Assembly (NCBI GenBank): GCA_023663285.1
Contig: JAMPHT010000010.1
Coordinates: 18,333 to 82,332 of the forward strand
Length of the DNA stretch: 64,000 bases
Direction of reading: 5' to 3'
Source of the DNA: Bacillota bacterium
GTDB lineage: Bacteria; Bacillota; Clostridia; Lachnospirales; Lachnospiraceae
Shown here one piece after another: positions 7,232-63,105 of the stretch; the first letter of the stretch is position 1; the number at the start of each line of letters is the position of its first letter. Position numbers and translations under genes: made by a program. The notes under the pieces were generated by a model that had not been told where the DNA came from, ran no database searches, and was given only the letters and a program-made list of their open reading frames with translations.

Positions 7232-8107
7232 ATGATCGAGAAAGTATATATTCCACCGATAAAAATACAGGGCATCAAAACGAAAATCGTACCGTTGATT
7301 TCAGAAGTGGCTTGGATCGATGATGCTACGGTATGGATAGAGCCCTTTATGGGTTCGGGCGTTGTTGGGTTTAATCTGGCGCCTGAGAGGGCTGTATTTG
7401 CTGATACAAATCCTCATACGATAAAATTGTATAACGCTATAAAAGCAGGGGATATAACATCATATAGTGTCAGGGAATTTTTGGAAAGAGAAGGGAAAAA
7501 GCTGGAGGAGAAGGATGATAAATATTACTACTATATAAGAGACAGATTTAACGAAGAACAGAATCCGCTGGATTTTCTGTTTTTGAACAGAAGCTGTTTT
7601 AACGGTATGATTAGATTTAACCGCAACTATCAATTTAATGTACCATATGGGCATAAGCCGGAAAGATTTGCCAAGGCCTATGTTACAAAAGTTGTCAATC
7701 AGGTAAAAAGGCTGGAAACGATTTTCGCAGGCGCAGATTGGGAATTCAAATGTCAGTCATTTGAACAGACAATAGATGAAGCTGCCTGCAATTCGTTTAT
7801 ATATTGCGATCCGCCATATATAGGGAGGCATGTGGACTATTATGACAGTTGGGACGTAGAGCATGAAATAAGGCTGCATGATGCGTTGGTCAAGTCGGGA
7901 GCACATTTTATGCTGTCAACATGGGATAAAAATAAGTATAGAGAAAATGAATATATTGATACGATTTGGAAAGATTGTCATAAGGTAAATCAGGAGCATT
8001 TTTATCATGTGGGAGCGAAGGAGTCCAATAGAAACGCTATGCTGGAAGCACTGCTGATGAACTATGATCCCGCAGATATTCCATTGCGCGGGAAAAGGAC
8101 GGGATAA
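7232..8107 (+). CDS. EcoRV-type adenine-N6 DNA methyltransferase
   Basis: 291 residues, a D12/Dam-class alpha-type methylase. Visible motifs are the N-terminal PPIKIQGIKTK, the AdoMet site EPFMGSGVVGFNLAP, NRSCFNGMIRFN, and catalytic DPPY starting at Asp193. The start, the middle (PLDFLFLNRSCFNGMIRFN) and IGRHVDYY agree closely with M.EcoRV as I recall it. The expected activity is methylation of adenine in GATATC, protecting the host from the nuclease encoded 30 bp downstream. The start is set by GGAGAAG 7-8 bases upstream. Base composition is clearly more AT-rich than the flanks, suggesting transfer. The specificity is inferred. Confidence 0.93.
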   Translation: MIEKVYIPPIKIQGIKTKIVPLISEVAWIDDATVWIEPFMGSGVVGFNLAPERAVFADTNPHTIKLYNAIKAGDITSYSVREFLEREGKKLEEKDDKYYYYIRDRFNEEQNPLDFLFLNRSCFNGMIRFNRNYQFNVPYGHKPERFAKAYVTKVVNQVKRLETIFAGADWEFKCQSFEQTIDEAACNSFIYCDPPYIGRHVDYYDSWDVEHEIRLHDALVKSGAHFMLSTWDKNKYRENEYIDTIWKDCHKVNQEHFYHVGAKESNRNAMLEALLMNYDPADIPLRGKRTG

Positions 8108-8137
8108 GGCGGCAGATCAAAAAACAAAGGAGACGAT

Positions 8138-8992
8138 ATGGAATTAGATTTCATAGAGGTATTCAATAAGAAACTGGAAGAGAAAAATATTGATTGGGAG
8201 GTCAGCGCACTGATCTCGCCTGATGGCAGATTGTTTTCTCTTGGGAGTGACTCGAAGTTAATAGGGCGGATCTTTGAGTTGATTTGTTATAATATTTTAC
8301 AGGAAATCGCAGATGAAAATGGATTAATATTGCATCCTTCGGAAGCACAGACGGTATATCCTGATTTTACGCTTATGAGGAGTACGGATGATAAAAAGAA
8401 GATCGCTGTGGATATAAAAACTACATATAGAAAATTTTTAAAGAGCGGAGTGCCGTCCGGATATGTATTTACACTTGGTTCATATGCGTCCTATATGCGT
8501 GACGGCAAGAAGAATATATCATATCCCTACAACGAATATGCAAAGCATTATGTAATAGGATTTATATATACAAGGAATGAAAATGCTTCGGAAGGAAAAG
8601 TATTTAGCATTAACGATTTGAGTGAATTGCCTGTTCCATATAAGGATGTTGAGGTTTTTGTTCAGGAAAAATATAAAATAGCAGGAGACAGGCCAGGAAG
8701 CAGGAATACAGAGAATATCGGCTCATTTAAAACAAACCGGATAGATTATTTAGTCAATGGAGAAGGCCCTTTTTCGGAGCTTGGAATAGAAATATATGAA
8801 GATTATTGGCGCGGATTTAAGAAATACAGGGAAGAATCCAAATATACGTCTTTGGAAGGATACTTGGAGCTTCAGGAAGGTAGTAATGGAGAAGCTTTGA
8901 GAAAAATTTATGAGCTTTGGAAGGAGAAGCATTGCAAACTGAATAGCGTAGATCAAGCTGATAATAGCGGTATTGCAGGAGGATCGCCATAG
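8138..8992 (+). CDS. EcoRV-like type II restriction endonuclease
   Basis: 284 residues; EcoRV itself is about 245. The active site PD-(D/E)XK is visible as YPDFTL (Asp76) and VDIKTTY (Asp92, Lys94), with the same spacing as EcoRV Asp74/Asp90/Lys92. Other matching blocks are the LGSDSKL segment, SYASYMRDGKKNISYPYNEY, YVIGFIYTR, and AGDRPGSRNTENIGS in the position of the EcoRV recognition loop. It should cut GATATC bluntly as a homodimer. It follows the methylase by 30 bp on the same strand. No controller (C) protein gene is seen. The C-terminus is longer than in EcoRV. Confidence 0.92.
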   Translation: MELDFIEVFNKKLEEKNIDWEVSALISPDGRLFSLGSDSKLIGRIFELICYNILQEIADENGLILHPSEAQTVYPDFTLMRSTDDKKKIAVDIKTTYRKFLKSGVPSGYVFTLGSYASYMRDGKKNISYPYNEYAKHYVIGFIYTRNENASEGKVFSINDLSELPVPYKDVEVFVQEKYKIAGDRPGSRNTENIGSFKTNRIDYLVNGEGPFSELGIEIYEDYWRGFKKYREESKYTSLEGYLELQEGSNGEALRKIYELWKEKHCKLNSVDQADNSGIAGGSP

Positions 8993-21361: not shown

Positions 21362-21483
21362 AGCATAAAGTCCATAATTAAGTTGTAACGGCAGCGGTCA
21401 ATGAGGTATAATGATTCTACAGACGCAGAATCCAAGGCCGTAATAACAGCCTTGCCGCCGCTTGCTGAAATGTGGAGACAAAA

Positions 21484-21546
21484 ATGAGCACTTTGATTGA
21501 AAACATAGATAAGCTTCATACATTTGATCTTTTAAACTACAGCTAA
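21484..21546 (+). pseudogene. Possible N-terminal remnant of a DUF3781-type gene
   Basis: A 20-codon frame begins MSTLIENIDKLHT, which resembles the usual start of DUF3781 proteins as I recall them. It then loses similarity and stops. It probably marks a deletion or insertion junction. The match is short, so confidence is limited. Confidence 0.35.
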
Positions 21547-21580
21547 AGAAACTTGAGTATAATAAGAAAACGTTAGTGAA

Positions 21581-21609
21581 TTGAAATATAGATCCGCCTA
21601 TGGTAGAAT
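21581..21609 (+). promoter_or_regulatory. Promoter candidate for the defence operon
   Basis: TTGAAA, 17 bases, TAGAAT. It lies 96 bases before the broken XRE start and about 190 bases before the ATPase gene. It is the only clear sigma-A-like promoter seen upstream of the four-gene operon. Confidence 0.6.
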
Positions 21610-21704
21610 GATGACAATCGGGAGTTATGTAACCTTTCGGTAGGTACATAAAGCCCTGATAGTCGATGTCGATATGGATATAGAGAATTGAAGAGGTAAT
21701 GTAT

Positions 21705-21784
21705 ATGCCTGTATCTTATAATGGACTCAGAAAACTACTAATCGACAAAATATGAAGAAAGCAGATTTGTTGGAAAAGGTATAG
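21705..21784 (+). pseudogene. Frameshifted N-terminal remnant of an XRE-family regulator
   Basis: The frame from 21705 reads MPVSYNGLRKLLIDK and then stops at 21753. The next frame continues with MKKADLLEKV and stops at 21782. Together they match the usual start of small XRE regulators (MPISYNKLWKLLIDK-type). Restoring one A in the A run near 21747-21750 rejoins them. The rest of the gene is absent, and the defence ATPase begins 15 bases further on. Confidence 0.6.
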
Positions 21785-21799
21785 CAGGAGGCGATGAAA

Positions 21800-23071
21800 A
21801 TGTATTTAGAGAACGTCAATATAAAGAATTACAAGGGAATAGAAGAAATAGATATCGACTTGAAACCCGGTATCAATTTATTGATTGGAGATAATGGAGC
21901 CGGTAAGACATCTGTGTTGGAAGGAATAGCGGTCGCACTAAGCGGACTATTTGTAAATGTGGCAGGCGTAAGCACGAAGAACTTTGTAAAAGAGGATGTC
22001 CGTATGAGCATTGATCCACTTGGAGATGCCTCGACTTCTGTGACATATTGTGAACCGATTTCGGCAGGATGCAGTCTGAAAATCTGCGCGGGGGAAGAAT
22101 TTAAATGGAACAGAATCAAAGAAGAACTGTCATCAACCCATACAAAGATAGATGATAAAGCAGTGTGCATATGGATGAAGAAGCTTACCAATCAAACAGA
22201 TTCCATTCTTCCCTTGGTCAGTTTCCAGAGCGCTGCCAGAGCGTGGAAAGTGCGGCGTGGCGATTTCGGAACGGAATTACAGAAAAAATTAGATGACAGA
22301 AGATGCGGCTATATTGGATGTCTTGATTCTTCCATGGATGTGAAATCCATACAACAGTGGTGCATGAAGCAGGAAGTAATTGTAGTCCATAAAGGGAAGG
22401 TTCGTGAATACGAGACATTTAAGAATATTATTTCAACATTTATGAAAGAAATCAATGAGTTGGATGAATCACCGGAAGTTTATTATTCTCCACAATTTGG
22501 AGAGCTGGCGTATAAAGATAGTAGGGATGATATGGCAATTTCAAAATTAAGTGCCGGATACCAGTCACTTCTGTGGATGATCATGGATCTGGCATACAGA
22601 GTGTGCCTGCTTAATCCGGAATTGAGTGACAAATCACAGATAAAAGGAATTGTGCTGATTGACGAGATTGATATGCATCTGCATCCTAAGTGGCAATGGA
22701 ATATCATCAAGGCACTTAGTACAACTTTTAAAAATGTCCAATTCATTATTGCAACACATTCCCCAATTGTAATCTCCTCCGCAAAAAAAACAAATTTGAT
22801 TCTACTTGATGAAGAACAAGGTGTAGCTTATTTGCCGGAGTGTTATGGATATGCGGTGGAAGATGTGCTTTGCTACAGGCAAGAGAGTATGTCCAGACCA
22901 AAGAGTGTGAAAGTATTGATAGATCAAATCAATGAGTCTGTGGATGATGAGAATTTTAATGATGCTGAAAAAGTTTTGACACAACTTAAAAGTATTCTTG
23001 GAGAAGAAAATTCTGAGTTTAAGAAGATGGCAGGCGTTGTTGAAGATGCCAAATTGATTTGGGAGAGTTGA
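21800..23071 (+). CDS. Septu-like AAA ATPase (PtuA-like)
   Basis: 423 residues from the ATG at 21800, which sits 8 bases after AGGAGG; the in-frame ATG at 21794 is too close to it. It is an SMC/RecF-like ATPase with Walker A IGDNGAGKTSVLEG, signature-like LSAGYQSLLWMI, Walker B IVLIDEIDMHLHP and the histidine switch ATHSPIVISS. The C-terminal ECYGYAVEDVL segment is typical of Septu PtuA and retron-associated ATPases. With the HNH nuclease 3 bp downstream it forms the two-gene Septu layout. No reverse transcriptase is nearby, so a retron is not supported. Confidence 0.85.
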   Translation: MYLENVNIKNYKGIEEIDIDLKPGINLLIGDNGAGKTSVLEGIAVALSGLFVNVAGVSTKNFVKEDVRMSIDPLGDASTSVTYCEPISAGCSLKICAGEEFKWNRIKEELSSTHTKIDDKAVCIWMKKLTNQTDSILPLVSFQSAARAWKVRRGDFGTELQKKLDDRRCGYIGCLDSSMDVKSIQQWCMKQEVIVVHKGKVREYETFKNIISTFMKEINELDESPEVYYSPQFGELAYKDSRDDMAISKLSAGYQSLLWMIMDLAYRVCLLNPELSDKSQIKGIVLIDEIDMHLHPKWQWNIIKALSTTFKNVQFIIATHSPIVISSAKKTNLILLDEEQGVAYLPECYGYAVEDVLCYRQESMSRPKSVKVLIDQINESVDDENFNDAEKVLTQLKSILGEENSEFKKMAGVVEDAKLIWES

Positions 23072-23074
23072 TAC

Positions 23075-23818
23075 ATGATATATATACAAAAAGAAGGATT
23101 ATCCGATGATCTGAGCCGGAAGATTATTGAGATCCGAAAAAGTGAAGCATGGAAGGATATAGAAGAGGACAATGCGGAATCTATAAGACAGGTGTTTGAT
23201 AACGAATTTCCTAAGAGTGAGGTAAAAGCGGTTTTGATTCGTGAGCAGAGAGGATTATGTGCTTACTGTATGAAGAGGATCCGAATGGATTCACATTCCA
23301 GAATAGAGCACTTTATTCCGCTCAGTGCGGATAAAGAAAAGGCAATCGACTACGGCAATATGCTTGGCGTATGTGACGGTGGAGAAAAGATCATAGGGCA
23401 GCAGGGCCACATTTTATGCTGTGATGCTCATAAAAAGGAGACAGAGATCAGCACAAGTCCATTGAATAAGCTGCAGATGGATAAAATTGCCTATAAGCCC
23501 GACGGAACTATATTCACAGAGCCAAAGGATGTGGCAATGGAAAAAGACATAAATGAGACACTCCTGTTAAATGGGGCAAGAAAGCCGGATGGTTCTGTCA
23601 GGGATACATCAACAGAAATTTTAAAAGGCAGGCGGGATGCTTACGACAGAGCCCGCCGAATGATGGAAAATCTCAATAAGAGTGGAAAGTGTACTTCTGC
23701 AGCCGTGAAAAAGATTGTGGACAATCTGCTTGATCAAGAAGAGAGAGAAGAGTATGTTGGGGTAAAGTTGTATTATTTCGGGAAAAAGTATGATGCGTTG
23801 GTAAGACGGGGATTATAA
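23075..23818 (+). CDS. Septu-like HNH endonuclease (PtuB-like)
   Basis: 247 residues. The HNH core is CAYCMKRIRMDSHSRIEHFIPLS with NMLGVCDGG, followed by a second metal cluster element CCDAHKKE. This layout matches the TIGR02646-type HNH proteins that act as PtuB in Septu. It should cut nucleic acid when released or activated by the ATPase complex. GGGAGAG lies upstream. The gap to the ATPase stop is 3 bp. Confidence 0.85.
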   Translation: MIYIQKEGLSDDLSRKIIEIRKSEAWKDIEEDNAESIRQVFDNEFPKSEVKAVLIREQRGLCAYCMKRIRMDSHSRIEHFIPLSADKEKAIDYGNMLGVCDGGEKIIGQQGHILCCDAHKKETEISTSPLNKLQMDKIAYKPDGTIFTEPKDVAMEKDINETLLLNGARKPDGSVRDTSTEILKGRRDAYDRARRMMENLNKSGKCTSAAVKKIVDNLLDQEEREEYVGVKLYYFGKKYDALVRRGL

Positions 23819-23845
23819 TCAACAAAAGAAAGGTTTGAAAAGTTT

Positions 23846-26800
23846 ATGGACTTTTTGTATTCACTATATAAACAACCATCACCTCGCAAAGATTATGACA
23901 AGGTGGAAATCAGGCAGACAAAGGTTGATTCAAGATACCTTTCTCATTTGAAGAAAATCCCGGAAACGGACAACGAGTCTAAATTACGTAATAGAATTGT
24001 AAAAGAATTTCCGAATATAAAGTTACTATGTGAAATTGAAATCAATGATGACGAATACAAACTGCTGTGTGCTTATTTCAGGAAAAAATATCTGCAAATT
24101 AGTCGCAATATAGGAAAATCAGTTGTAGATATTATGTTTTCTATTGCATTAGTACAAATAGGAATTCGTAATTATGATGGAAATTTCTGGAAGCAAGTTG
24201 ATGATGTGTTAGGAATAAAAGTTCCTTTGACACATAGAACATTGATTGGCGGCACTCTAAGTAACACTTTAGTAGCTTTTGGAAAACCATTATTTAGTAA
24301 TCAAGAATATGTGACTAATATTCTTATGCATTGTTTTGTAACTCAATCTTTTTTGACAAGATTGTATGATTATCTTTTTCAATATTATAATTTAGATTTG
24401 CAACGAGATATGGCAGGCATGAGTGAGGCCGACTTGGATTTTTTGTGTTCAAGTATAAAAAACCCATTCGGAATGAGACAGCAATTGCTGTCAAATTATA
24501 CAGCTCTATCCCTGAAAGGAAATGAAGAGTATTGTAAGAATATTCTTTATAAAGCGTTACAATTGATTGATATGAGTTTCTGGAAGGAGTATTCAGCAGA
24601 GATTGTTTTACCAGAAAGATTCCAAAAGGAGTTTGAAGAATGGAAAAAGGTTTCAAGCTTTTATAAGAATGAGCAAAAACGAATGGAAGAAGTTTTGCTA
24701 TCAGGTAACAGAGAAAAAGTATATAGAAAACCTCATTTAAAATGTCATCTTGAGCAAGGGTTATTTGAAGTAGTCTTACCCCCGCAGATGGTAAGAGAAT
24801 CTAAAGAAGATGAATATCCGACGTTGACATGGCATATTTTTTCATCAAAAACTAAACGTGAGTTAAGATGTAGTTTGGAAGAAGGATATTCAGGATATAA
24901 AACTAAAGAACTTAAAGTTGAATTAGGATCTGAAGAAATATTTGAAGAAATTCAATTTCTTTTATTTAAGGATAATGATTTACTTAGAAAATTTTCGTGG
25001 GATAAACATATTATAAATTTTTTTGATGAGTCTGGAAATTGGACATCAGAAACTTCATTAGAAAGCGGAAATTATTTTGGTTTCACAGAAGTTGATACAG
25101 AAGTAATATCTAATGCATTATTAGCTGCTTCCATTAGAAATCATGTGAAATTTTGGGAGTTTAATTTTGTTGAAGGTGATCTTGTACAAATACGTGGTGA
25201 AAAGAGTTATTATGTAGGAGAAGTTCCTAATACCGGATTGACAAAAGAGTATTTAGTCAAAGATATAGAAGTTTTTACTGAACAAGGAGAGCGTCATCTA
25301 GTATACAATAGACTTCCAGCATATGTGATAGATATTCCTGTTAAACAATTTAATGGTACTGCAGTATATGTAAATGGAATGATTGAAAGACTATCAGAAA
25401 AGGATTTTGTCGATGTATGCCATGCTAAAGATAATGAAAAGAAATATTATTTTCTGAATTTAGATGGATTGGAAAATATAAGAACAGGTTTTAATGAAAT
25501 CATAATAGATATTCCTGGCAGTAATCGAAAATTACAGGAAAGGTTTATCTATATTCCGGATTTCAAATATATATTTGAGGATGCCCCATATGTATTTCAA
25601 AAAAGAGGAACATTGAGTTTAAATTGTAAGATAAACAATGGAATAGTTACAGATATTGTATGTGAAAATATGGAAAATTATGATTTTGCAATAGATGACT
25701 TAAATAGTGGTTATTTAGAGTTTTCCATTTTTTTTGAAGAAATAAAATATAAAATGGTTATTCATATTCCAGTGTTTATGTATAGTTGGGATATGAATAA
25801 TTGGATTGTACAAAAATCAGAAGATATATGGCATAATGAACTACAAAGCTATATTTATATAAAATACCCAGCAGAGAAAATTTCCCTTGGTGTGAGTGAT
25901 AGCAGTGATGTAGTGCAAGCTACATACGTCTACAATAAAAATGTAAATGATATTTTTGCCTGTGATTTGACAAAGTTGAAATCATACTTTTACGATGGAA
26001 CAATAGCAAAAAGAATTATATTGATAAGTGATGTGGAAGAATATGATGTTTTGCGTATTATTACCAGAAGTGACCTGCAAAATGTAGTATTGGAAGTGGA
26101 TTATGAAAAGGATCATGTAATATGGAGATTTGATATTAGTGGAAAAAATACATACTATGCAGATATCTTCTATAAAGATGAATGTATTTTAGAAAAAGAA
26201 AAGATTATTGATGGGAAAATCGAAACCCAAATACCAATTCACTCCGCCAAATATCTTGTAAAAGTATTTGAGACAGAGGATGAGTTTGGGTTTGATGAAG
26301 AATATGATTTTGTTGGACAATCAATTACAACTGTGATTAACCTAATGGAACTTACAAATAGTTGTATGAAACTTAATATGATTACAGAAATTGATAATTC
26401 CAAGAATGCCTTGGAGACGCAATACAGTTATTATATTTTTGTTCGTGGGACAGATGAAGATATGAAGAATGATAAGCACTATTATACCGGAATATTAGCT
26501 GGTATTTTCCATAATTCGGTAATGTGTGCTTCGAAAGTAAAAATATATATTCCAAATTTGAATGATATTTATCATGTATTTATAAGGTTTATAGATGAAT
26601 ACGGTGATAATTGTGAATTTTTGTATGACAGTTATACAAATAGTATTAATGAAGATGAAAACCCACGATTTACAAAATCCGAGGCATATAGGAGATATGA
26701 GGTGCTATGTACAGATATGTTTGTATGGAATGTAAAGTATGTAAGTAGTAATCATGACTTGGCCCAAAAGGCGCAGAGTTGGATAGAAACTCATAATAAT

Positions 26801-27031
26801 AAACAGAAAAAGCAATTTTGGAAATCCAATAATCGTGAATTGAAAAAGAACTCAATCGATAAATTGGAATTATCTACTCGAAGTTATAATTGCCTGAAGA
26901 GAGCGGGACTATTAATAGTCGAGCAAGTAGTGGCAGCATACAAAAGAGGTAATTTAATAAAGTTAAGGAATTTAGGTAAAAAAAATTACGAAGAAATATG
27001 TTCAAAGTTACGAAAACACAATTTGATTTAG
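23846..27031 (+). CDS. Large protein with C-terminal RNA polymerase alpha-CTD-like domain (DruH-like candidate)
   Basis: 1061 residues, soluble, low GC. The N-terminal 200 residues are helical (EYKLLCAYFRKKY, FSIALVQIGIRNYDGNFW). The centre (about 270-980) looks beta-rich and has no motif I recognise. The last 60 residues read SIDKLELSTRSYNCLKRAGL and then LRNLGKKNYEEI, the helix-hairpin-helix of the RNA polymerase alpha C-terminal domain. Size and position before a giant DUF1998 helicase fit DruH of type III Druantia, but sequence homology was not tested. Confidence 0.6.
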   Translation: MDFLYSLYKQPSPRKDYDKVEIRQTKVDSRYLSHLKKIPETDNESKLRNRIVKEFPNIKLLCEIEINDDEYKLLCAYFRKKYLQISRNIGKSVVDIMFSIALVQIGIRNYDGNFWKQVDDVLGIKVPLTHRTLIGGTLSNTLVAFGKPLFSNQEYVTNILMHCFVTQSFLTRLYDYLFQYYNLDLQRDMAGMSEADLDFLCSSIKNPFGMRQQLLSNYTALSLKGNEEYCKNILYKALQLIDMSFWKEYSAEIVLPERFQKEFEEWKKVSSFYKNEQKRMEEVLLSGNREKVYRKPHLKCHLEQGLFEVVLPPQMVRESKEDEYPTLTWHIFSSKTKRELRCSLEEGYSGYKTKELKVELGSEEIFEEIQFLLFKDNDLLRKFSWDKHIINFFDESGNWTSETSLESGNYFGFTEVDTEVISNALLAASIRNHVKFWEFNFVEGDLVQIRGEKSYYVGEVPNTGLTKEYLVKDIEVFTEQGERHLVYNRLPAYVIDIPVKQFNGTAVYVNGMIERLSEKDFVDVCHAKDNEKKYYFLNLDGLENIRTGFNEIIIDIPGSNRKLQERFIYIPDFKYIFEDAPYVFQKRGTLSLNCKINNGIVTDIVCENMENYDFAIDDLNSGYLEFSIFFEEIKYKMVIHIPVFMYSWDMNNWIVQKSEDIWHNELQSYIYIKYPAEKISLGVSDSSDVVQATYVYNKNVNDIFACDLTKLKSYFYDGTIAKRIILISDVEEYDVLRIITRSDLQNVVLEVDYEKDHVIWRFDISGKNTYYADIFYKDECILEKEKIIDGKIETQIPIHSAKYLVKVFETEDEFGFDEEYDFVGQSITTVINLMELTNSCMKLNMITEIDNSKNALETQYSYYIFVRGTDEDMKNDKHYYTGILAGIFHNSVMCASKVKIYIPNLNDIYHVFIRFIDEYGDNCEFLYDSYTNSINEDENPRFTKSEAYRRYEVLCTDMFVWNVKYVSSNHDLAQKAQSWIETHNNKQKKQFWKSNNRELKKNSIDKLELSTRSYNCLKRAGLLIVEQVVAAYKRGNLIKLRNLGKKNYEEICSKLRKHNLI

Positions 27032-27051
27032 TTCAGAAGGGAAAGATACAA

Positions 27052-30000
27052 ATGAAGTTTTCTCCAATCAAGGCATCAGAAACTATAACCGAAAAATACA
27101 AAAGGTATTTAAAAACGGCATTTGAAATTGCGGATTCAGATTATGCAAAACAATTTGATAAGGAGATTAATGCACAAGACCTTTTTGCGAAGGGTCCATA
27201 TTTAGATGTATTAGATTCCTTTAAAAAAGGAAGATCATTACGTGAATTAATGGACAAAGGAATTATATCAAAGTCCTTTGGTAAAGCTGGATTTCCGATG
27301 AAACGCACATTGTATTTACATCAGGAGGAAGCCATACGGAAGAGCGTAGCAGGTAATAATATTGTTGTATCAACAGGAACTGGTTCTGGTAAAACAGAAA
27401 GTTTCTTGATTCCAATTTTAGCAGAATTAGCAAAAGAAGATGAGATGGGAATACTATGTCCTGGGGTAAGAGCATTGATTATTTATCCAATGAATGCCCT
27501 TGCAAATGACCAGATGGAAAGGTTGAGAGAGATCCTTTCAGAATATCCCCAGATTACATATGGTAGTTATACCGGTCAAACAAAACAGGATAGAAAGAAG
27601 GCATTACAGGAGTATAGGGTATTAAATGGTGGTAAGGAGCCAAAATGTAATGAGTTGATTTGCCGGGATGATATGATAAAAAATCCTCCGCATATTTTAA
27701 TTACAAACTATGCAATGCTGGAATATTTAATGATTCGTCCGACAGAAAATACTTTCTTTAATGGTCTGTATGCTAAATACTGGAAGTTTATAGTTTTGGA
27801 CGAAGCGCACGTATACAGTGGATCAACAGGAATAGAAGTCTCAATGTTATTAAGACGATTAAAGAGTTGTTTACCGGTCGAGGATGTCCAATATATTCTA
27901 ACTAGCGCTACTTTAGGAAGTGAGGAACAAAACGCGGAAGTGGCAGAATTTGCAACACGTTTGTGTAATAGTCCTTTTACTGAGAAGAATATTATTAGAG
28001 CAGAGCGTCAAAGTCCAAGACAAGATAGCGCAAATACCGTTAAAAGAGAATTTTTTGAATATGGAAACATAGCAAAAGCAATTAACGATGAAGATGAGAG
28101 AGCCATTCTGGATGAAATTAAGAATTTAGCAAAAATTGACGACAACGAAGACATTCATGCTCAAGTGTATGATTTGATTTTGGGTGATCAAAATTATTGG
28201 AATATTAGAAAACTGCTTCAAGAAAAGCCACGAACTATATATTATTTGGCTAATACTATGGGGTGCTCAGTAGAAGAAATAGAAGATTTTGTTACGGTTG
28301 CGGCGTTTGCAGAAAAAAATAGTACACAGCTTTTGGATGCGAAGTACCATATGTTCATTAAGGCCTGTGATAGTGCGTTTGTAACCTTGGGAAAATCTAA
28401 AAAGCTCATGCTTAATCGTAATAAGCAGATTTATGATAATGGACTGGAATATGCTGTTTTTGAAATCGCAGTCTGTACATTTTGTCATAAGATTTATCTT
28501 ATCGGTAAAATAAGTCCGGAAGGTTATTTTCAACAAAAGAGTATGTATGATAGTTTTGATGAGAAGGAAATTCTGTATTTGGGTGAGACTATTTCAGATG
28601 AGGATGAAGAACATAGTTTAGAAGATGAAAATATGAAGGTCGAAGAATATAAATTATGTTCAAGATGTGGTAAGCTGATGATCCCAAACGCATCTAGTAA
28701 TGAATGCTGCGAGCATAGGGAAGAAGAGTATGTTACGGTTTATCGCGTTATTAAGTCAAAGCAGGAATTGACAAAATGTGTTGTATGCGAAAATACAAAT
28801 AATAAAGGTGTATTAAGACAGTTCTTTGCGGGTCAGGAAGCTGTAACCAGTGTAATAGGCACAGCACTTTTTGAAGCGTTGCCATCTTACAAGATAGTTA
28901 AAGAAAAAGTGGAATTTCAAGATGATTTTTTGTTTGATGAGGAAGAAGAAAGTTCATTTGAAAAAACATATACAGAAGAGAGTGCAAAGCAATTTATAGC
29001 ATTTTCAGATAGCCGTCAAGCCGCGGCCTTTTATGCAAGTTATTTAGAAAAAACATATACGACAATTTTATATAAGAGGCTTATCGTTGAGGCTATCAAA
29101 AGCAGGGAATTCCAAGGGAATGTGGAACAGTTTGTAAGTGTATTGGAAGCGGAATTTGAAAAAAAGAATGTACTAAAAGATGAAGGATTGTCTGCTGAAA
29201 AGGAAGCGTGGAAGGCTGTTTTAAACGAGATGGTAGATAGTTTTTCAGGAAATGCTTTGCAAAATCTTGGATTTTATGAATTGACTGTAGATAGAGCTGA
29301 TGTGCCTGGCATAAGTAAAGTGGGATTGTCCTCTGACGATGTGGCAAATATTATTAACTTATGTTTGCAAACAATGATGTTAGAAGCTGCCATTGCATAT
29401 CCGATTCCACTAAACAAAACGGATAAGGAATTTTTCACATATAATGGACATGAAGGGGGCTTTACTTTATCTGATGGTGGCAAAAATGGATCATGCAAAT
29501 CGTTTATTCCGACTAAGGCGAATGGATTAAATAAAAGAGTTGATTTTGTTGAGAAGATTATTGAGTATACACTGCCAGATCAGAGCAGAGATTATGCAAT
29601 ACGTCTATTAGTTGATATTTGGAAATTGCTAATCAAAAGAGAAATAATTGTTAATGAAGGCATTGAGTACAAGGTTAATACCAAAAAAATCCAAATAAAT
29701 TCTCATGCAAAGTTTTATCAATGCCCGGTATGCAAAAAAATCACATCATATAATGTTAAGGGGGTGTGTCCGACATATAAGTGTAAAGGTGTACTGCAGG
29801 GGATTGACTTGCATAAAACATTGGAAGAGAATCACTATTATCGTATGTATCAAGAACTGGAAATCAGAGGTTTGCGTGTAGTAGAGCATACTGCACAATT
29901 AAATAAAGAAAAAGCGTATATATATCAGAACCTTTTTAAAGAAAAGAAAGTCGATATTTTAAGTTGTTCAACAACGTTTGAAATGGGTGTTGATGTCGGT

Positions 30001-32121
30001 AGCTTAGAAACTGTGTTCATGAGAAATATGCCACCTTCCCCTGCAAATTATGCACAGCGAGCAGGACGAGCAGGACGCAGTTCTAAATCGGTAGCATTTG
30101 CATTAACATTTTGCAATAAAGGCAGCCATGACTTTATGTATTTCAATAATCCAGAATCAATGATAAGAGGCAGTATTAAGCCACCAATTTTCAAGGTTGA
30201 GAACGAAAAAATTGCTATTCGTCATGTGTTTGCATCTGCATTTGGTTTTTTCTGGAGAAAGCATCCAGAGTACTTTTCAGATGTTGAGACATTAATTGAG
30301 CAAAAAAATGGTCAGAGTGGTTTTGAAATATTGTCACAATATTTGACTGAAAAACCAGACAATTTAAAAGAATACCTTAATGATTTCTTACCTGAACAAC
30401 TACATGGACGATTTGACATTGAAAACTATGGTTGGACTATGAAATTATTGAGTGATCAAGGGGTATTGACAAGAGCTGCAAAAGAATATTTTTATGAAAT
30501 TGGAATACTTGAAAAATCGTTACAGGAAGCGCTTAATAATAATGGTAGAGTTGATTATTTGAGATGGAGAATCAACAATTATAAGAAGGAAAGTGTTATT
30601 TCATTTCTATCCAAGAAAAGCATCTTGCCCAAATATGGTTTTCCGGTAGATACAGTCGAATTGGCAATATGGGATTCGAAAGCAACAAACAAATTGGAAT
30701 TAGATTTACAACGTGATTTAGCGATGGCTATTTCAGAGTATGCTCCGGGTTCACAAATTGTAGCAGATGGGAATCTAATTACAAGCCAATACATTAAAAA
30801 AATGCCTAATATGGATTGGCGAATGTTCGACTATGCATACTGTGAGTGTAATACATTAAATATCGAGCCACATATTGAATACGAGGATGAAGAACATTTA
30901 AGGACTTGTAAAGTATGCGGAAAGGATCTGGATAAAAGTCATAACTATACATTTATTGTGCCTGAATTTGGCTTTGAAGCGGGCATGGTTACAAAAGCTG
31001 GATTAGTCAAACCGAAACGTACATACAATGGAGAGGTTGCATATGTTGGATATAGAAATGAAGTCAAGTATAATGTTTTTCAATTGAAAAATAGGAAATA
31101 CGAGATTGCATTTAGTCCAAATGATGAGATGGCAGTATTAAACAGGTCAAATTTTTATGTATGTAATACTTGTGGTTATACGCATTTGGCAACTACTGGT
31201 TTTCAAAGCATTTTTCCAAAATTGCACAAAAAATCCAATGGTGCAAAGTGTGAGAACGAAAAATTGAAGAGGTACTCTTTAGGGTATCGATTTGATACAG
31301 ATGTTGTTCAGATTAGATTTTGTTGGCCGCAATTAAAAACATATGAACAGGCATTGTCAGTTTTGTATGCTATAATGAAAGGGACCTGTGCTTATCTGAG
31401 TATTGAAGAAAATGATATTGCAGGATGTCTTCAATATTTTTATAACCGGGATACTAAGAGCGGCAGTTTTACAATAATCCTATATGACAAGACACCTGGA
31501 GGTGCTGGGCATGTTAAACGTTTGAATGATCCGAATATTTTTGAGGCTGTTTTGAATGAAACCAAGCGAATTATAGAAAATTGTACTTGTGGAAATGAAC
31601 AAAAAGATACATCTTGCTATAATTGCCTTAGAAGTTATTCCAATCAGCGAGTGCATGATATTTTACAAAGGAGGTATGTACTAGAATTTTTGGAGGATTT
31701 CTTTGATGAAAATTTGAATGGTGTAGATACATTTGTTGATTATTCAATAGAAAACAATGAAACAAAAGACAATGTAAAGAGTACTTGCTTTTCAGAGCAA
31801 TTTGAATTATTGTTAAAAAATTCCGAGAGTGTTCTTAATGAAAAGCAACGTTTTATTGGCTTGTTAAAAGATTATTTATATAGGTATCCGAAACAGTTAA
31901 ACTTAGTTATTAGCTTGTATCAGATGAATATTCAAAAGGATATATTGCAAACAGGTTACATCAATGATATTTTTGCAGATAGATTTGAAAAGCGGCTGGT
32001 TAATGATATGGGAATCAGTGCAGAAAATGCTAGGTGGGCGGTTTCGGCTTGGTGTGTGATTTATGGGAAGCAAGTCTTGAATAAACCTTGTGATATCGAA
32101 TTTGAAGAAATGATGGTTTAG
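27052..32121 (+). CDS. Giant DEAH-box helicase with DUF1998-type C-terminus (DruE-like)
   Basis: 1689 residues from the ATG at 27052, which has GGGAAAG upstream and avoids the 34-bp overlap of the ATG at 26998. Helicase motifs are STGTGSGKTESFLIP (I), VLDEAHVYSGS (II), LTSATLGS (III), TTFEMGVDVG (V) and YAQRAGRAGRSS (VI). Several zinc-type Cys pairs follow (CPVCKK, CKVCGK, CNTCGY), and the end carries the DUF1998 cluster CTCGNEQKDTSCYNCLRSY. This is the build of Druantia DruE. DISARM splits these domains between DrmA and DrmB, and MrfA is much shorter. Confidence 0.8.
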   Translation: MKFSPIKASETITEKYKRYLKTAFEIADSDYAKQFDKEINAQDLFAKGPYLDVLDSFKKGRSLRELMDKGIISKSFGKAGFPMKRTLYLHQEEAIRKSVAGNNIVVSTGTGSGKTESFLIPILAELAKEDEMGILCPGVRALIIYPMNALANDQMERLREILSEYPQITYGSYTGQTKQDRKKALQEYRVLNGGKEPKCNELICRDDMIKNPPHILITNYAMLEYLMIRPTENTFFNGLYAKYWKFIVLDEAHVYSGSTGIEVSMLLRRLKSCLPVEDVQYILTSATLGSEEQNAEVAEFATRLCNSPFTEKNIIRAERQSPRQDSANTVKREFFEYGNIAKAINDEDERAILDEIKNLAKIDDNEDIHAQVYDLILGDQNYWNIRKLLQEKPRTIYYLANTMGCSVEEIEDFVTVAAFAEKNSTQLLDAKYHMFIKACDSAFVTLGKSKKLMLNRNKQIYDNGLEYAVFEIAVCTFCHKIYLIGKISPEGYFQQKSMYDSFDEKEILYLGETISDEDEEHSLEDENMKVEEYKLCSRCGKLMIPNASSNECCEHREEEYVTVYRVIKSKQELTKCVVCENTNNKGVLRQFFAGQEAVTSVIGTALFEALPSYKIVKEKVEFQDDFLFDEEEESSFEKTYTEESAKQFIAFSDSRQAAAFYASYLEKTYTTILYKRLIVEAIKSREFQGNVEQFVSVLEAEFEKKNVLKDEGLSAEKEAWKAVLNEMVDSFSGNALQNLGFYELTVDRADVPGISKVGLSSDDVANIINLCLQTMMLEAAIAYPIPLNKTDKEFFTYNGHEGGFTLSDGGKNGSCKSFIPTKANGLNKRVDFVEKIIEYTLPDQSRDYAIRLLVDIWKLLIKREIIVNEGIEYKVNTKKIQINSHAKFYQCPVCKKITSYNVKGVCPTYKCKGVLQGIDLHKTLEENHYYRMYQELEIRGLRVVEHTAQLNKEKAYIYQNLFKEKKVDILSCSTTFEMGVDVGSLETVFMRNMPPSPANYAQRAGRAGRSSKSVAFALTFCNKGSHDFMYFNNPESMIRGSIKPPIFKVENEKIAIRHVFASAFGFFWRKHPEYFSDVETLIEQKNGQSGFEILSQYLTEKPDNLKEYLNDFLPEQLHGRFDIENYGWTMKLLSDQGVLTRAAKEYFYEIGILEKSLQEALNNNGRVDYLRWRINNYKKESVISFLSKKSILPKYGFPVDTVELAIWDSKATNKLELDLQRDLAMAISEYAPGSQIVADGNLITSQYIKKMPNMDWRMFDYAYCECNTLNIEPHIEYEDEEHLRTCKVCGKDLDKSHNYTFIVPEFGFEAGMVTKAGLVKPKRTYNGEVAYVGYRNEVKYNVFQLKNRKYEIAFSPNDEMAVLNRSNFYVCNTCGYTHLATTGFQSIFPKLHKKSNGAKCENEKLKRYSLGYRFDTDVVQIRFCWPQLKTYEQALSVLYAIMKGTCAYLSIEENDIAGCLQYFYNRDTKSGSFTIILYDKTPGGAGHVKRLNDPNIFEAVLNETKRIIENCTCGNEQKDTSCYNCLRSYSNQRVHDILQRRYVLEFLEDFFDENLNGVDTFVDYSIENNETKDNVKSTCFSEQFELLLKNSESVLNEKQRFIGLLKDYLYRYPKQLNLVISLYQMNIQKDILQTGYINDIFADRFEKRLVNDMGISAENARWAVSAWCVIYGKQVLNKPCDIEFEEMMV

Positions 32122-32236
32122 ATTTATTGTTCAAGTTCTTATGCTTATCTTGCAGTATTCTAGAGGTTCTTGCGCAGAGGAATATGTGAGGAGGCATAGA
32201 ATAAAATACCAACTGGTGTAGTAGGGAGGTATTACC

Positions 32237-32536
32237 ATGGATCAGATCACCCACGATGTCAGACGTTCCAACTGGCTGAACAGCATCCAGCAGTACCAGA
32301 GCCGCCCGGAGGGCATGACTGCCAAGCAGTGGATGGCAGATAACGGCATCCGTCCAAAATCGTACTACTACTGGCTCAGAAGATTCTGGAAAGAATCCTA
32401 TGAGCTGATGCATCCTCACAATGATATCGCATTTCATGAGGTGCCGTTCCCGGTTCCATCACAGGAGCCTGCCCCTGCGGTCGCCGCAGTGTCTCCAGGG
32501 AACGAACGGCTGCGGCTGTCTGACAGACTGGTTTAA
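32237..32536 (+). mobile_element. Truncated IS66-family accessory gene tnpA
   Basis: 99 residues. The helix-turn-helix region WLNSIQQYQ, then MTAKQWMADNGIRPKSYYYW, is typical of IS66 TnpA-like accessory proteins. The C-terminus ends early (NERLRLSDRLV). No tnpB or tnpC transposase follows; the next gene is degV on the other strand. It is therefore an insertion-sequence remnant at the right edge of the defence island. GC content is back to the backbone level. Confidence 0.8.
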
Positions 32537-32579
32537 ATTATGCGCCGATTATGAGGGGGCGGAATACAGAGCAGATCCC

Positions 32580-32612
32580 TCAAAAAGGGAACCGTCACAG
32601 AGTACGGTTCCC
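32580..32612 (-). terminator. Terminator of degV overlapping its stop
   Basis: On the minus strand GGGAACCGT, 8-base loop, ACGGTTCCC, then five T. The stop codon of degV lies in the loop. It also shields degV from the defence operon reading toward it. Confidence 0.88.
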
Positions 32613-59794: not shown

Positions 59795-60838
59795 ATGAAG
59801 AAACAAAATATTATCAATCTCGTGAAATACCACACTGAACAGAATAATGCAGCTTTTGTTTCGGAAGTGTCTGAAATAGCCAGAGAGTTTGATAAGTGCG
59901 GTGATTATGAGGTGGCACAGTACTTGATGGATTTAGTTTCAAATGCAAATGTTTATATACCGCAGGCTAATTATCGTAATCTTCAGTTCTTGGAGAAACT
60001 TGAGTACTCATCTAATCCCCTTATGCTTCCTAATATCATTGAAGAAGATGTTATTGGAATTGCACGGACAATCAAGAATAAGAGCGGTATGTCTAAATTC
60101 CTTTTCCATGGGGCACCGGGTACAGGAAAAACAGAGTCTGCTTTTCAAATAGCCCGTTTACTTGAAAGAGATATTCTTTCGGTGCATTTGGAGCAGTTGA
60201 TCGATAGCAGATTAGGAGAAACTTCAAAAAATGTAACCAGACTATTTGATGAGATAAATCATTTAATGTATAGCAAGGCTATTGTTATATTTGATGAATT
60301 GGATGCCTTAGTTTTAAACAGGAGCAGCGCAAATGATCTTCGTGAGATGAGCAGAGTGACGTCAACATTTTTAAGAGAATTGGATACTTTAAGTGATCAG
60401 ATCGTCGTGATCGCTACGACAAATTTATTTGAAAGTTTTGATAAGGCATTATTAAGAAGGTTTGATGCTATTATTTCGTTTGACAGATATTCAAAGAAAG
60501 ACCTTATTGAAGTTGCAGATGCCATGTTGACCTCTAGCATAAAAAAGGCAGTTAATTCAAGTCAGGATATGAGATTATTCCATAAGATATTAAATAAGCT
60601 GCCTGAGATTCCATATCCCGGAGATATGAAGCAGATCATAAAGACTTCTATTGCTTTTAGTGATGAAACGAGCAAATATGACTACCTGAGAAAAATCTAT
60701 CTTGCTTTAAATAATAATCCACAAACTGTCGATATTCAAAAGCTTTCGGAGCAGGGCTTTACCACAAGAGAGATAGAGATCCTTGCCAGAGTTCCTAAAA
60801 GCAGTGTGTCACGCAAACTCAAGGGAGGGAATGTCTGA
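59795..60838 (+). CDS. AAA+ ATPase of a subtilase defence pair (IetA-like)
   Basis: 347 residues, with GGAGGGA upstream. Classic AAA+ motifs: Walker A FHGAPGTGKTES, Walker B IVIFDELDAL, sensor 1 VVIATTN, arginine finger LLRRFDAII. The C-terminus (TTREIEILARVPKSSVSRKL) looks like a small helix-turn-helix. The gene overlaps the next by one base (TGATG). An AAA+ ATPase followed by a subtilisin-like protease is the layout of IetAS, known as a plasmid-stability pair and later as an antiphage system. Low GC suggests transfer. Confidence 0.85.
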   Translation: MKKQNIINLVKYHTEQNNAAFVSEVSEIAREFDKCGDYEVAQYLMDLVSNANVYIPQANYRNLQFLEKLEYSSNPLMLPNIIEEDVIGIARTIKNKSGMSKFLFHGAPGTGKTESAFQIARLLERDILSVHLEQLIDSRLGETSKNVTRLFDEINHLMYSKAIVIFDELDALVLNRSSANDLREMSRVTSTFLRELDTLSDQIVVIATTNLFESFDKALLRRFDAIISFDRYSKKDLIEVADAMLTSSIKKAVNSSQDMRLFHKILNKLPEIPYPGDMKQIIKTSIAFSDETSKYDYLRKIYLALNNNPQTVDIQKLSEQGFTTREIEILARVPKSSVSRKLKGGNV

Positions 60839-63105
60839 TGAATAATTTGCTTGAGGTAAAGGTTCGGTACAATCATAGAAAACGAGATAAAGGACTTATT
60901 TTTGTAAACCTTAGAAAAAATGGGGAAACGGATGTCAGAAGGATTGAACAATTGCAAGAAAATTTAAAGGCAATAGTCAGATATTATGAATCAATTCCTA
61001 AATATTTGAAAGGTTATTTGATTGATGTTAATTATAATGATATTATTGCAAAATCTATGAGAATAAGCGAAGTGCTTAAACCCAGCGGGAAACAGACGAA
61101 TGATGTTGTGGTAGGGGCTCGCTTCTCAGATGCTTCTGAAGGCCAGGAAAATCATATTATCACATATTATGTGGATGAGGAAACTATTAAGCAAACGCTT
61201 GAGAAATTAGAGGAAGCAAAGAGATTTTTAGTAGAGGAATTGGATGGCAGGGCGGTGCCGGAGAACTTTAATGAAACAAAAGAAAAAAAGCCTGATTTAG
61301 ATTATAAAAGTTATTCTTCCAAAAACATTATTCGTAATTTGATCGTTGACTGTTCTGTAGTAGAATCCCTGTCAGTTCCCCATGTGACTGCAGATGTACA
61401 GAAGGAATCCTTTTTGTTGACATTTTTTCAGACAGAATACTCGTTATCGGAAATGTTGGAACAACTTAAAATAGACCGATATTTGTATCCTTACGCATTT
61501 TATGGAAAAGATACTATCTCAGTAAGCTGGGATCTGTATCAAATTCTTCAAGATAAGGTTCCATACATGATTTCAATGATTTCTTCGGATCTATCACAAG
61601 TAACATTAGAGGCTGTTGATAAATCAAAACAAAAGTATAAAAGAGATATTCCTAAACCATCAAATGAGCCTACCATAGGTGTGATAGATAATTTATTTGA
61701 TGAAGAGGTTTACTTTTCCGAGTGGGTCAAGAATACAGATTATCTTGATGAGTTTGAATCCATTAACGGAAGAGATGTTTCCCGTGATCATGGCACAGAG
61801 GTAACATCTATTATTGTAGATGGGCCTGGTTTGAATCCATGGCTTGATGACGGCTGCGGCAGATTTAAGGTGCGGCATTTTGGTGTGTGTGTTGACAGGA
61901 TTTCTGTTCCGCGGTTAGTAAATAAAATCAGAAACATAGTGAATGATAATCCTGATATCCACGTATGGAATTTATCGCTTGGGACAGACGATGAAGTGTC
62001 GAAAAACTTTATCTCATATGACGGTTCCGCACTGGATGAGTTGCAGGCAAGTAAAAATATTATCTTTGTTGTATCGGGAACAAATGATAATCGCAGTCAA
62101 AGAGAGGGTATGCTGCGCGTTGGCTCTCCGGCAGATTCCCTGAATGCAGTAGTTGTCAATTCGGTAAAACGCAATGGACTGCCCGCTTCCTACACCAGAA
62201 AAGGAACCATTTTATCTTTCTTTAATAAGCCGGATGTTTCTTATTATGGAGGAGATTATGAGGAAAGTGAACGTATAAAAGTATGTTCCTCCAAAGATAT
62301 TGAAGCGGTATACGGGACATCTTTCGCAGTCCCCTGGATAGCAAGAAAGCTCTCATTTTTAATCGATATTATGGGATTTCCCAGAGAAGTAGCAAAAGCA
62401 TTGATCATAGATTCAGCGGCTGGGTGGGAGTTTAAGACATCTACATATAAAATTCAGAATCAGATTGGCTATGGTATTGTTCCAATCAAAATATCAGACA
62501 TTCTGGAATCGGATAATCAGGAAATAAGATTTGTTTTGTATGGCACGGCAAGTTCGTACATTACTTCAAATTATTCCATACCCGTTCCGAGAGATTCTGA
62601 TAATAAGTATCCTTTTATCGCACGAGCAGCATTGTGTTATTTTCCACAGTGTTCCAGGGTACAAGGTGTAGATTATACATCCAGAGAATTATCTTTGAGA
62701 TTTGGACGTGTGAATAGAAAAGGTGAAATCGATGATATCAACGAAAATACTCAGGATGAAGAGGGGGTTGCTGTTGATGAACGTAAGTCGCGCAGGGATT
62801 TTAGAAAATGGGAAAATACGAAGTTTATATCTAAGATCCTGAAAAAAAATCGGGCATTGAATTCTTATGACGAGCGTTTATGGGGGATATCTATTGTATC
62901 AAAGGAACGGTTGACGAATGCTATGACTTCCGATTTAAATTTTGGGGTAGTTATCACACTGCGGGAAATCAATGGCGTGAATAGAATACAGGATTTTATT
63001 ACGGCTTGTACTTTAAGAGGCTGGATCGTAAATGAGATCAAGATTGAAAACAGGTTGACGCTTTATAATAAGAATCAAGAGGAAATAACATTTGACGAGA
63101 CGTAG
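60838..63105 (+). CDS. Subtilisin-like S8 protease of the AAA+ pair (IetS-like)
   Basis: 755 residues. About 270 N-terminal residues of unknown fold precede the S8 domain. The catalytic triad is visible: Asp284 (GVIDNLF), His318 (SRDHGTEV) and Ser495 (YGTSFAVPW), with the oxyanion Asn in VVSGTNDN. No signal peptide, so it acts in the cytoplasm, where the AAA+ partner probably keeps it inactive or feeds it substrates. About 240 residues follow the protease domain. It is translationally coupled to the ATPase. Confidence 0.87.
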   Translation: MNNLLEVKVRYNHRKRDKGLIFVNLRKNGETDVRRIEQLQENLKAIVRYYESIPKYLKGYLIDVNYNDIIAKSMRISEVLKPSGKQTNDVVVGARFSDASEGQENHIITYYVDEETIKQTLEKLEEAKRFLVEELDGRAVPENFNETKEKKPDLDYKSYSSKNIIRNLIVDCSVVESLSVPHVTADVQKESFLLTFFQTEYSLSEMLEQLKIDRYLYPYAFYGKDTISVSWDLYQILQDKVPYMISMISSDLSQVTLEAVDKSKQKYKRDIPKPSNEPTIGVIDNLFDEEVYFSEWVKNTDYLDEFESINGRDVSRDHGTEVTSIIVDGPGLNPWLDDGCGRFKVRHFGVCVDRISVPRLVNKIRNIVNDNPDIHVWNLSLGTDDEVSKNFISYDGSALDELQASKNIIFVVSGTNDNRSQREGMLRVGSPADSLNAVVVNSVKRNGLPASYTRKGTILSFFNKPDVSYYGGDYEESERIKVCSSKDIEAVYGTSFAVPWIARKLSFLIDIMGFPREVAKALIIDSAAGWEFKTSTYKIQNQIGYGIVPIKISDILESDNQEIRFVLYGTASSYITSNYSIPVPRDSDNKYPFIARAALCYFPQCSRVQGVDYTSRELSLRFGRVNRKGEIDDINENTQDEEGVAVDERKSRRDFRKWENTKFISKILKKNRALNSYDERLWGISIVSKERLTNAMTSDLNFGVVITLREINGVNRIQDFITACTLRGWIVNEIKIENRLTLYNKNQEEITFDET

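Follow-up and report, generated by a model that had tools for sequence, protein, structure and literature searches.

We wondered whether four tightly packed genes in a Lachnospiraceae genome make up one defence system or two. In the window (the whole 64,000-nucleotide stretch of DNA that was analysed), coordinates confirmed the four same-strand open reading frames that an earlier note had described, their order, and their gaps of 3, 27 and 20 bp; that note had taken them for either a stacked island or a true composite system. A genome of the same genus, G1058, shows an empty site in which the upstream ABC-transporter ATPase gene directly abuts degV; window position 21362 corresponds to L113:12050 and window position 32594 to L113:12046, meaning that all four genes lie within one insertion of about 11.2 kb (21363..32593, no strand assigned, boundaries to within a few bp) that adjoins degV and has the ABC-transporter ATPase gene on its other, upstream flank. 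The reading we favour, and consider probable, is that this insertion next to degV holds two independent systems head to tail: Septu, and then a Druantia-III-like pair whose first member, gene 3, is a proposed sensor and anchor.

Both ends of the insertion carry presumed remnants. At the left end, near 21705, is what we take to be the truncated start of a regulator-like gene; at the right end, a 99-aa open reading frame (32237..32536, + strand), for which Pfam gave no match, presumably resembles a remnant of an IS66 accessory gene, judging by its sequence. These remnants might be read as signs that the whole island has decayed and no longer functions; the four open reading frames are, however, full length relative to their homologues and keep the motifs tested, and we regard such decay as very improbable.

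Judged by sequence, the first two genes are an ordinary Septu PtuA/PtuB pair, alike in both proteins, their adjacency and their motifs, with no notable differences, and the earlier description of them as Septu-like stands. The ptuA frame opens at 21794, yet four of five homologues align from its third residue, which is the second ATG and has AGGAGG at the usual distance; we accordingly place the gene at 21800..23071 (+ strand). Its product, the Septu ATPase, matched the PADLOC PtuA model over residues 3-424 of 425 (520 bits, 1.2e-156) and the solved PtuA structure 8ee4 (E 7.8e-33), and carries the Walker A motif GDNGAGKT together with LSAGY and VLIDEI. The HNH nuclease gene ptuB (23075..23818, + strand) begins 3 bp downstream; its product has EHF and CxxC motifs and matched the PADLOC PtuB model at 133.6 bits (2.1e-39), while the NCBIfam PtuB match was weak (74.6 bits, below the cut-off of 150). 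No retron reverse-transcriptase gene was seen beside ptuA, the upstream gene being that of the ABC transporter ATPase; there was no open reading frame of at least 80 aa on that strand between the two, and an Rfam search returned no matches.

Gene 4 (27052..32121, + strand) encodes a YprA/DruE-like SF2 helicase with an MZB zinc domain. Its frame opens at 26998, and most homologues begin at residue 19 of that frame. Pfam found DEAD, Helicase_C and MZB (PF09369, formerly DUF1998), and PADLOC matched DruE1 at 583 bits (5.3e-175) and DruE3 at 551 bits (2.6e-165). In a tree of 20 rows, the 11 gene-3-linked helicases grouped as a single clade with 100/100 support that excludes E. coli DruE3, and gene 4, by this phylogeny, falls in a helicase clade separate from canonical DruE. 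The alignment of gene 4 with E. coli DruE stops at residue 1736 of 2114, so that the final ~380 residues of the E. coli protein have no counterpart. Canonical DruE has PLD nuclease domains in its C-terminal region according to PMC13192584; gene 4 thus appears to lack the canonical PLD region, where the identity of the missing part as PLD comes from that paper and not from this E. coli sequence. A regular expression for the PLD motif was also negative on E. coli DruE3, so the case for a missing nuclease in gene 4 is based on Pfam and on how far the alignment reaches; for other members of the clade it is judged from length alone. Gene 4 ends instead in a 136-aa tail (31711..32121, + strand) that had no relatives in the sets searched, with no Pfam match, only its own copy among 61 genomes, and no match in the phage collection.

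Searching a viral contig collection with the helicase gave eight distant loci, four of them labelled putative ARMADA in the tree by size and gene layout; at none of the eight did blastp (E<=1e-3) find a relative of gene 3, PtuAB or E. coli DruH. A single-protein helicase scan of genome contigs confirmed no relative.

Gene 3 (23846..27031, + strand), confirmed as a protein of 1061 residues, stands in the position of DruH and is known from 14 related loci. PADLOC gave it no match, its DruH3 models returning none at E<=1, in comparison with 1829 bits for E. coli DruH as a control; an ordinary DruH was thereby ruled out at model level. A profile comparison between DruH and the gene-3 alignment supplemented with three distant relatives reached 58% probability and a score of 53.0, collinear over 485 columns; 30 column-shuffled controls scored no higher than 21.9, and the reversed control scored 14.5. 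Other comparisons were weak, whether made with the gene-3 family alone (1.5%), a single DruH (0.1%) or the N-terminal part only (19.5%), as were those of the DruH alignment with P0019 (0.4%) and P0011 (0.0%) and of the DruH HMM with P0018 (E 0.84) and P0019 (E 0.4). On this one profile comparison, gene 3 is likely, but not proven, to be a remote DruH homologue; a solved-structure profile search with it gave no matches.

The C-terminal tail dominates searches with gene 3: the tally with the tail included, 286/299, is largely RpoA, and among the matches listed only its own genome and G268 match outside the tail. With the tail removed, matches were confined to its own genome among 392 genomes of the order and to nine of 398 genomes of the phylum, its own included. 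Tblastn against plasmids (16 records) and phages (8) matched only within residues 900-1060, and no gene-3 relatives were found in the viral contig collection.

The gene-3 loci allow the two halves of the island to be followed separately. A helicase lies alongside gene 3 at 12 of the 14 other loci, a Ruminococcus phage included; of the other two, L049 has none and L047 stops at a contig edge. PtuAB was near gene 3 at none of the 14, of which 12 show at least 5 kb upstream (the contigs of L056 and L058 end 528 and 424 bases upstream), and PtuA (E<=1e-10) was not found in any of the nine other numbered gene-3 genomes. Conversely, genes 3 and 4 were near PtuAB at none of five loci (the best four of 15 other PtuB-match genomes and one phage-collection record), at three of them 8 kb or more of sequence follows ptuB, and the contigs of L089 and L091 end 607 and 182 bases after it. 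The four-gene order therefore recurred at none of the 14 gene-3 loci and none of the five PtuAB loci, 12 and 3 of them having enough sequence on the relevant side. In G152 (L087), a 68%-identical PtuAB pair stands without genes 3 and 4. Helicase matches occurred in three of the 15 PtuB-match genomes (G162, G110 and G036), always on a contig other than that of PtuB; relatives of gene 3, PtuAB and DruH were all absent from the surrounding 14 kb of the G162 helicase locus. The viral contig collection gave no match to PtuA.

Base composition also divides the halves. The earlier statement that all four genes share the same low GC failed (ptuA, 0.39; ptuB, 0.42; gene 3, 0.30; gene 4, 0.35), and GC3 was 0.404 in PtuAB versus 0.267 in genes 3 and 4 (Fisher p 7.6e-12). 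A common transcript for both halves is nevertheless possible from the layout: they share a strand, the gap between them is 27 bp, and no terminator-like site was found at 23818-23846. That genes 3 and 4 use the Septu promoter while the halves keep separate functions, which is compatible with our favoured reading, seems to us an even call; a promoter scan gave 55 promoter-like matches against 49.0 +/- 7.7 in shuffles, a chance level that locates no promoter either way.

The same junction, the single insertion and a helicase without the canonical nuclease region, for which a borrowed nuclease would make sense, might also fit a true composite in which PtuAB provides the missing nuclease and the task of opening or exposing DNA falls to the helicase pair; Druantia III has been reported to act with the nuclease of a second system, ZorE (PMC13192584). 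The mutual absence of the halves from each other's loci (limited by contig ends at two loci on each side), their differing GC3 and the occurrence of same-clade helicases without PtuAB argue against such cooperation, and we consider it very unlikely. On the distribution of the halves we rejected the four-gene composite; as far as the loci reach, the halves occur apart in relatives, and of the two options first proposed it is the stacked island that holds.

The tail of gene 3 is an RNA polymerase alpha C-terminal domain (alpha-CTD; residues 996-1056, 26831..27013, + strand), matching Pfam RNA_pol_A_CTD (PF03118) at 57.2 bits against a cut-off of 23.8. The earlier note had overlooked it. In RNA polymerase this domain binds the A/T-rich minor groove, through DNA-contact positions defined in E. 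coli. The gene-3 copy shares 48% identity with the RpoA of its own genome. It preserves the host stretches RSYNCLKRAG and RNLGKKxxEE nearly unchanged, which speaks against a module that serves dimerisation or protein-protein contact and plays no part in DNA binding. An alpha-CTD is also present in four of 14 gene-3 relatives; the copies of P0007 and P0015 have lost RpoA residues, and the clade member P0016 has no alpha-CTD, as such a module would allow. We hold that reading to be possible, though unlikely. A more doubtful one is that the domain is a working copy of the host's, serving as bait or tracker by which the pair senses phage proteins attacking or taking over the host alpha-CTD, or finds strong phage promoters, with the helicase then loaded there.

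We found no report of an alpha-CTD in Druantia in the main-text literature searched, and the term 'RNA polymerase' is absent from the available main text of PMC12458937. An alpha-CTD-like domain has been described in another defence protein, PglW of BREX type 2, in the accessible part of PMC12839542; PglW, a kinase/nuclease protein, belongs to another system. The PADLOC PglW model matched the tails of the gene-3 relatives P0006 (1e-8) and P0007 (4.5e-5) and gave no match to gene 3 of the window.

Genes 3 and 4 are, by gene order and domain content, a Druantia-III-like two-gene pair with no nuclease domain recognised. E. coli Druantia type III likewise has a large protein followed by a YprA/DruE helicase, with the probable remote and collinear DruH similarity in gene 3, and the earlier likening to it survives for layout and helicase family. 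It does not extend to gene 3, which has an alpha-CTD tail and to which no DruH model responded, while those for PtuA, PtuB and DruE matched their genes, nor to gene 4, which belongs to a clade of its own, is ~425 aa shorter than its E. coli counterpart and ends before the canonical PLD region. The pair also resembles, by description, the 'Druantia Type III-like' or III-B branch, whose Druantia-lineage helicases most often have no nuclease domain and for which GIH50614.1 is the reference named (PMC12458937, in the text available). M. smegmatis Druantia III, again compared by description, comprises two genes with a DruE of 1667 aa and is active though both of its proteins lack a canonical nuclease domain; in contrast to gene 3, no alpha-CTD is mentioned in the available text (PMC13316683). 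Its authors suggest DNA degradation, and nuclease activity in vitro has been reported for E. coli DruH (PMC13192584); 'no nuclease' here therefore means only that none was recognised.

From these features we infer how the pair may act, including any anti-phage activity of the island. Gene 3 would serve as the sensor and as the anchor on DNA: recognition of infection would fall to its large N-terminal part, and its alpha-CTD, a helix-hairpin-helix DNA-binding domain, would hold the complex on DNA, probably in the minor groove of A/T-rich stretches, as the domain does in RNA polymerase. Gene 3 would load or license the gene 4 helicase, which would engage exposed single-stranded phage DNA and stop replication or circularisation, as reported for M. 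smegmatis DruH-DruE (PMC13316683). The DNA might be cut as well, perhaps by gene 3.

The apparent four-gene 'composite' is thus most likely two modules joined in one insertion, a caution that tight packing does not amount to one system. Druantia-like helicase systems gain a lineage whose partner protein can bear an RNA polymerase alpha-CTD, and through this domain the way in which the pair may find phage DNA can be tested directly.

Four co-directional genes lie with gaps of 3, 27 and 20 bp between them: ptuA (21800-23071; PADLOC PtuA, 1.2e-156), ptuB (23075-23818; PtuB, 2.1e-39), the gene for a 1061-residue protein in the DruH position (gene 3, 23846-27031; no PADLOC match) and a YprA/DruE-like helicase gene (gene 4, 27052-32121; DruE1, 5.3e-175; DruE3, 2.6e-165). 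This confirms the arrangement described in an earlier note, and PtuA, PtuB and DruE were recovered by defence models, gene 3 being the exception; the low GC that the note took all four to share, however, differs between the halves (GC3 0.404 in the ptu half versus 0.267 in genes 3-4; Fisher p 7.6e-12). A sequence scan found no terminator-like site between ptuB and gene 3, and promoter-like matches were no more frequent than chance. The window also holds a low-GC type II restriction-modification pair of D12-class adenine methylase and EcoRV-family restriction enzyme (7232-8992) and, as a third defence module, an AAA ATPase-subtilase pair matching PADLOC IetA and IetS (59795-63105).

The note had left two readings of this packing, a stacked island or a composite in which PtuAB and genes 3-4 work as one four-gene system. 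We compared 14 other gene-3 loci (one from a family search, eight from a phylum search, four from genome contigs and one from a Ruminococcus phage record) and five PtuAB loci (PtuA identity 72, 68, 53, 38 and 37%). A helicase relative adjoins the gene-3 relative at 12 of the 14; none lies beside it at locus L049, and L047 stops 0.8 kb past a truncated gene 3. By tblastn of the fetched stretches, neither PtuA nor PtuB was found near gene 3 at any of the 14, 12 of which have at least 5 kb of upstream sequence (less than 0.6 kb is available at L056 and L058), and PtuA was not found in the nine other numbered genomes bearing gene 3 (E<=1e-10). Neither gene 3 nor the helicase was seen at the five PtuAB loci; beyond ptuB, three of these extend for at least 8 kb downstream and the other two for less than 0.6 kb. 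The four-gene order thus recurs at none of the 14 or the five loci, 12 and three of them informative; the halves are found apart, which favours the stacked island and leaves the composite unsupported. The ptu half and genes 3-4 look like separate modules brought together at this site.

The phage gene-3 relative, which adjoins a helicase homologue, resembles another relative (E 2.8e-18) more strongly than the window's own gene 3 (E 1.7e-4, weak); the two phage genes lie near an endolysin gene (L053, PV036439.1, 5263-12686). Another YprA/DruE-like helicase, of 1732 aa, is encoded in a genome that also bears PtuB (L135, G162:C86, 213-10640), behind three large same-strand ORFs, none of which matches gene 3, DruH or PtuAB.

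In G1058, a genome of the same genus with 82-85% DNA identity to the window across both flanking genes, the upstream ABC-transporter ATPase gene directly adjoins degV with no insert between. Relative to G1058 the window carries ~11.2 kb of extra DNA (21363 to about 32593), so the four genes came in one segment or accumulated inside one. The leader of this insertion, just before ptuA (21363-21799), holds a short truncated frame that we take to resemble the start of an XRE-type regulator; at its right end is what is presumably a transposon-like ORF, with no Pfam match. At L114 and L115, in two further same-genus genomes, a gene we assume to be PhoU-like follows the ATPase gene; it is missing there in the window (21361) and in G1058.

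Gene 4 retains Walker A, DEAH, QRAGRAGR and cysteine pairs, with Pfam DEAD, Helicase_C and MZB domains; the note's Druantia-III-like label is right for the helicase family. Its alignment to E. coli DruE stops at residue 1736 of 2114; according to PMC13192584, the helicase part of DruE is followed at the C-terminus by two PLD domains. In a 20-row tree, on which the tool flags long branches, all 11 gene-3-linked helicases included form one clade with 100/100 support. Outside it lie E. coli DruE3 together with a Chryseobacterium relative, two cyanobacterial proteins and rows labelled ARMADA from gene layout only. Excluded from the tree were the broken helicase genes at L045 (12480-18654) and L033 (3505-8629), one broken by reverse-strand ORFs and one split across two frames. 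Judged by the alignment, gene 4 lacks the DruE C-terminal region, and length alone (1558-1731 aa) suggests the same for the rest of the clade. This agrees with M. smegmatis DruE (PMC13316683) and with a Druantia Type III-like branch reported to be mostly without a nuclease domain (PMC12458937). The last 136 aa of gene 4 (31711-32121) had no relatives in the sets searched.

The DruH half of the pair found no direct match: PADLOC DruH models did not hit gene 3 or eight relatives at E<=1, and at E<=0.1 they missed P0018 and P0019 as well, so that the scans covered all relatives but P0013 and P0015-P0017; E. coli DruH scores 1829 bits. Compared with an alignment of nine DruH sequences, the gene-3 family alone gave a weak probability of 1.5%, the N-terminal part by itself 19.5%, and two distant relatives compared one at a time 0.4% (P0019) and 0.0% (P0011); a DruH HMM gave E 0.4-0.84 for P0018 and P0019. 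With three distant relatives added, the family reached 58% (score 53.0, versus 14.5 reversed and at most 21.9 for 30 column-shuffled controls), collinear across 485 columns from the N-terminus. The weak comparisons speak against the link, and a remote common origin of gene 3 and DruH is likely rather than proven. P0011 (L051:9086-13051) is also a nearly full-length match to PADLOC candidate C3a139 ('HKD+Snf2').

Gene 3 ends in a C-terminal domain of the RNA polymerase alpha type (alpha-CTD; residues 996-1056; 57.2 bits against a cut-off of 23.8), 48% identical to RpoA of the same genome. It retains ELSxRSYNCLKRAG and RNLGKKxxEE stretches, which we take to cover six of seven DNA-contact positions of E. 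coli alpha. An RpoA profile built from sequences of this study found the domain in five of 16 scanned proteins, the window's and four relatives (two copies each in P0006 and P0015, one each in P0007 and P0017); it was not found in nine other full-length relatives, truncated P0013 or DruH. Three of those four have helicase partners in the tree, all within the window's five-member clade, whose fifth member, P0016 (Ignavibacteriae), lacks the domain. Non-RpoA proteins with alpha-CTDs occur elsewhere in four of eight genomes searched. Two related proteins, of 644 and 536 aa (L133:6048-7982, L134:5849-7459), carry two and one alpha-CTDs respectively, followed by what resembles, by eye, a sigma region 4. 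Together with the alpha-CTD-like domain described for PglW of BREX type 2 (PMC12839542), this indicates a reusable module. As far as our literature searches go, its presence in a Druantia-like pair is new.

Septu is an HNH nuclease controlled by an ATPase. For genes 3-4 we infer each functional step: gene 3 would sense infection and hold DNA via its alpha-CTD, and the helicase may engage single-stranded intermediates, halting replication or circularisation. The analogues are E. coli Druantia III, with DruH the likely sensor and DruE favouring 3' tails (PMC13192584), and M. smegmatis DruH-DruE, which is triggered by a minor tail protein and blocks circularisation and replication of phage DNA (PMC13316683). 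The same papers also point to DNA cleavage, since E. coli DruH and DruE cut DNA in vitro (PMC13192584) and the M. smegmatis authors suggest DNA degradation (PMC13316683); no nuclease domain was recognised in genes 3-4.

Our confidence is slightly reduced by the loci that stop at contig ends and by the nuclease activity reported for DruH, and we still consider it probable that the locus is a stacked island of an ordinary Septu and an independent Druantia III-like pair working as proposed. That pair represents a new Druantia III-like variant, distinguished by the alpha-CTD at the end of gene 3 and by a helicase that lacks the C-terminal region of canonical DruE.
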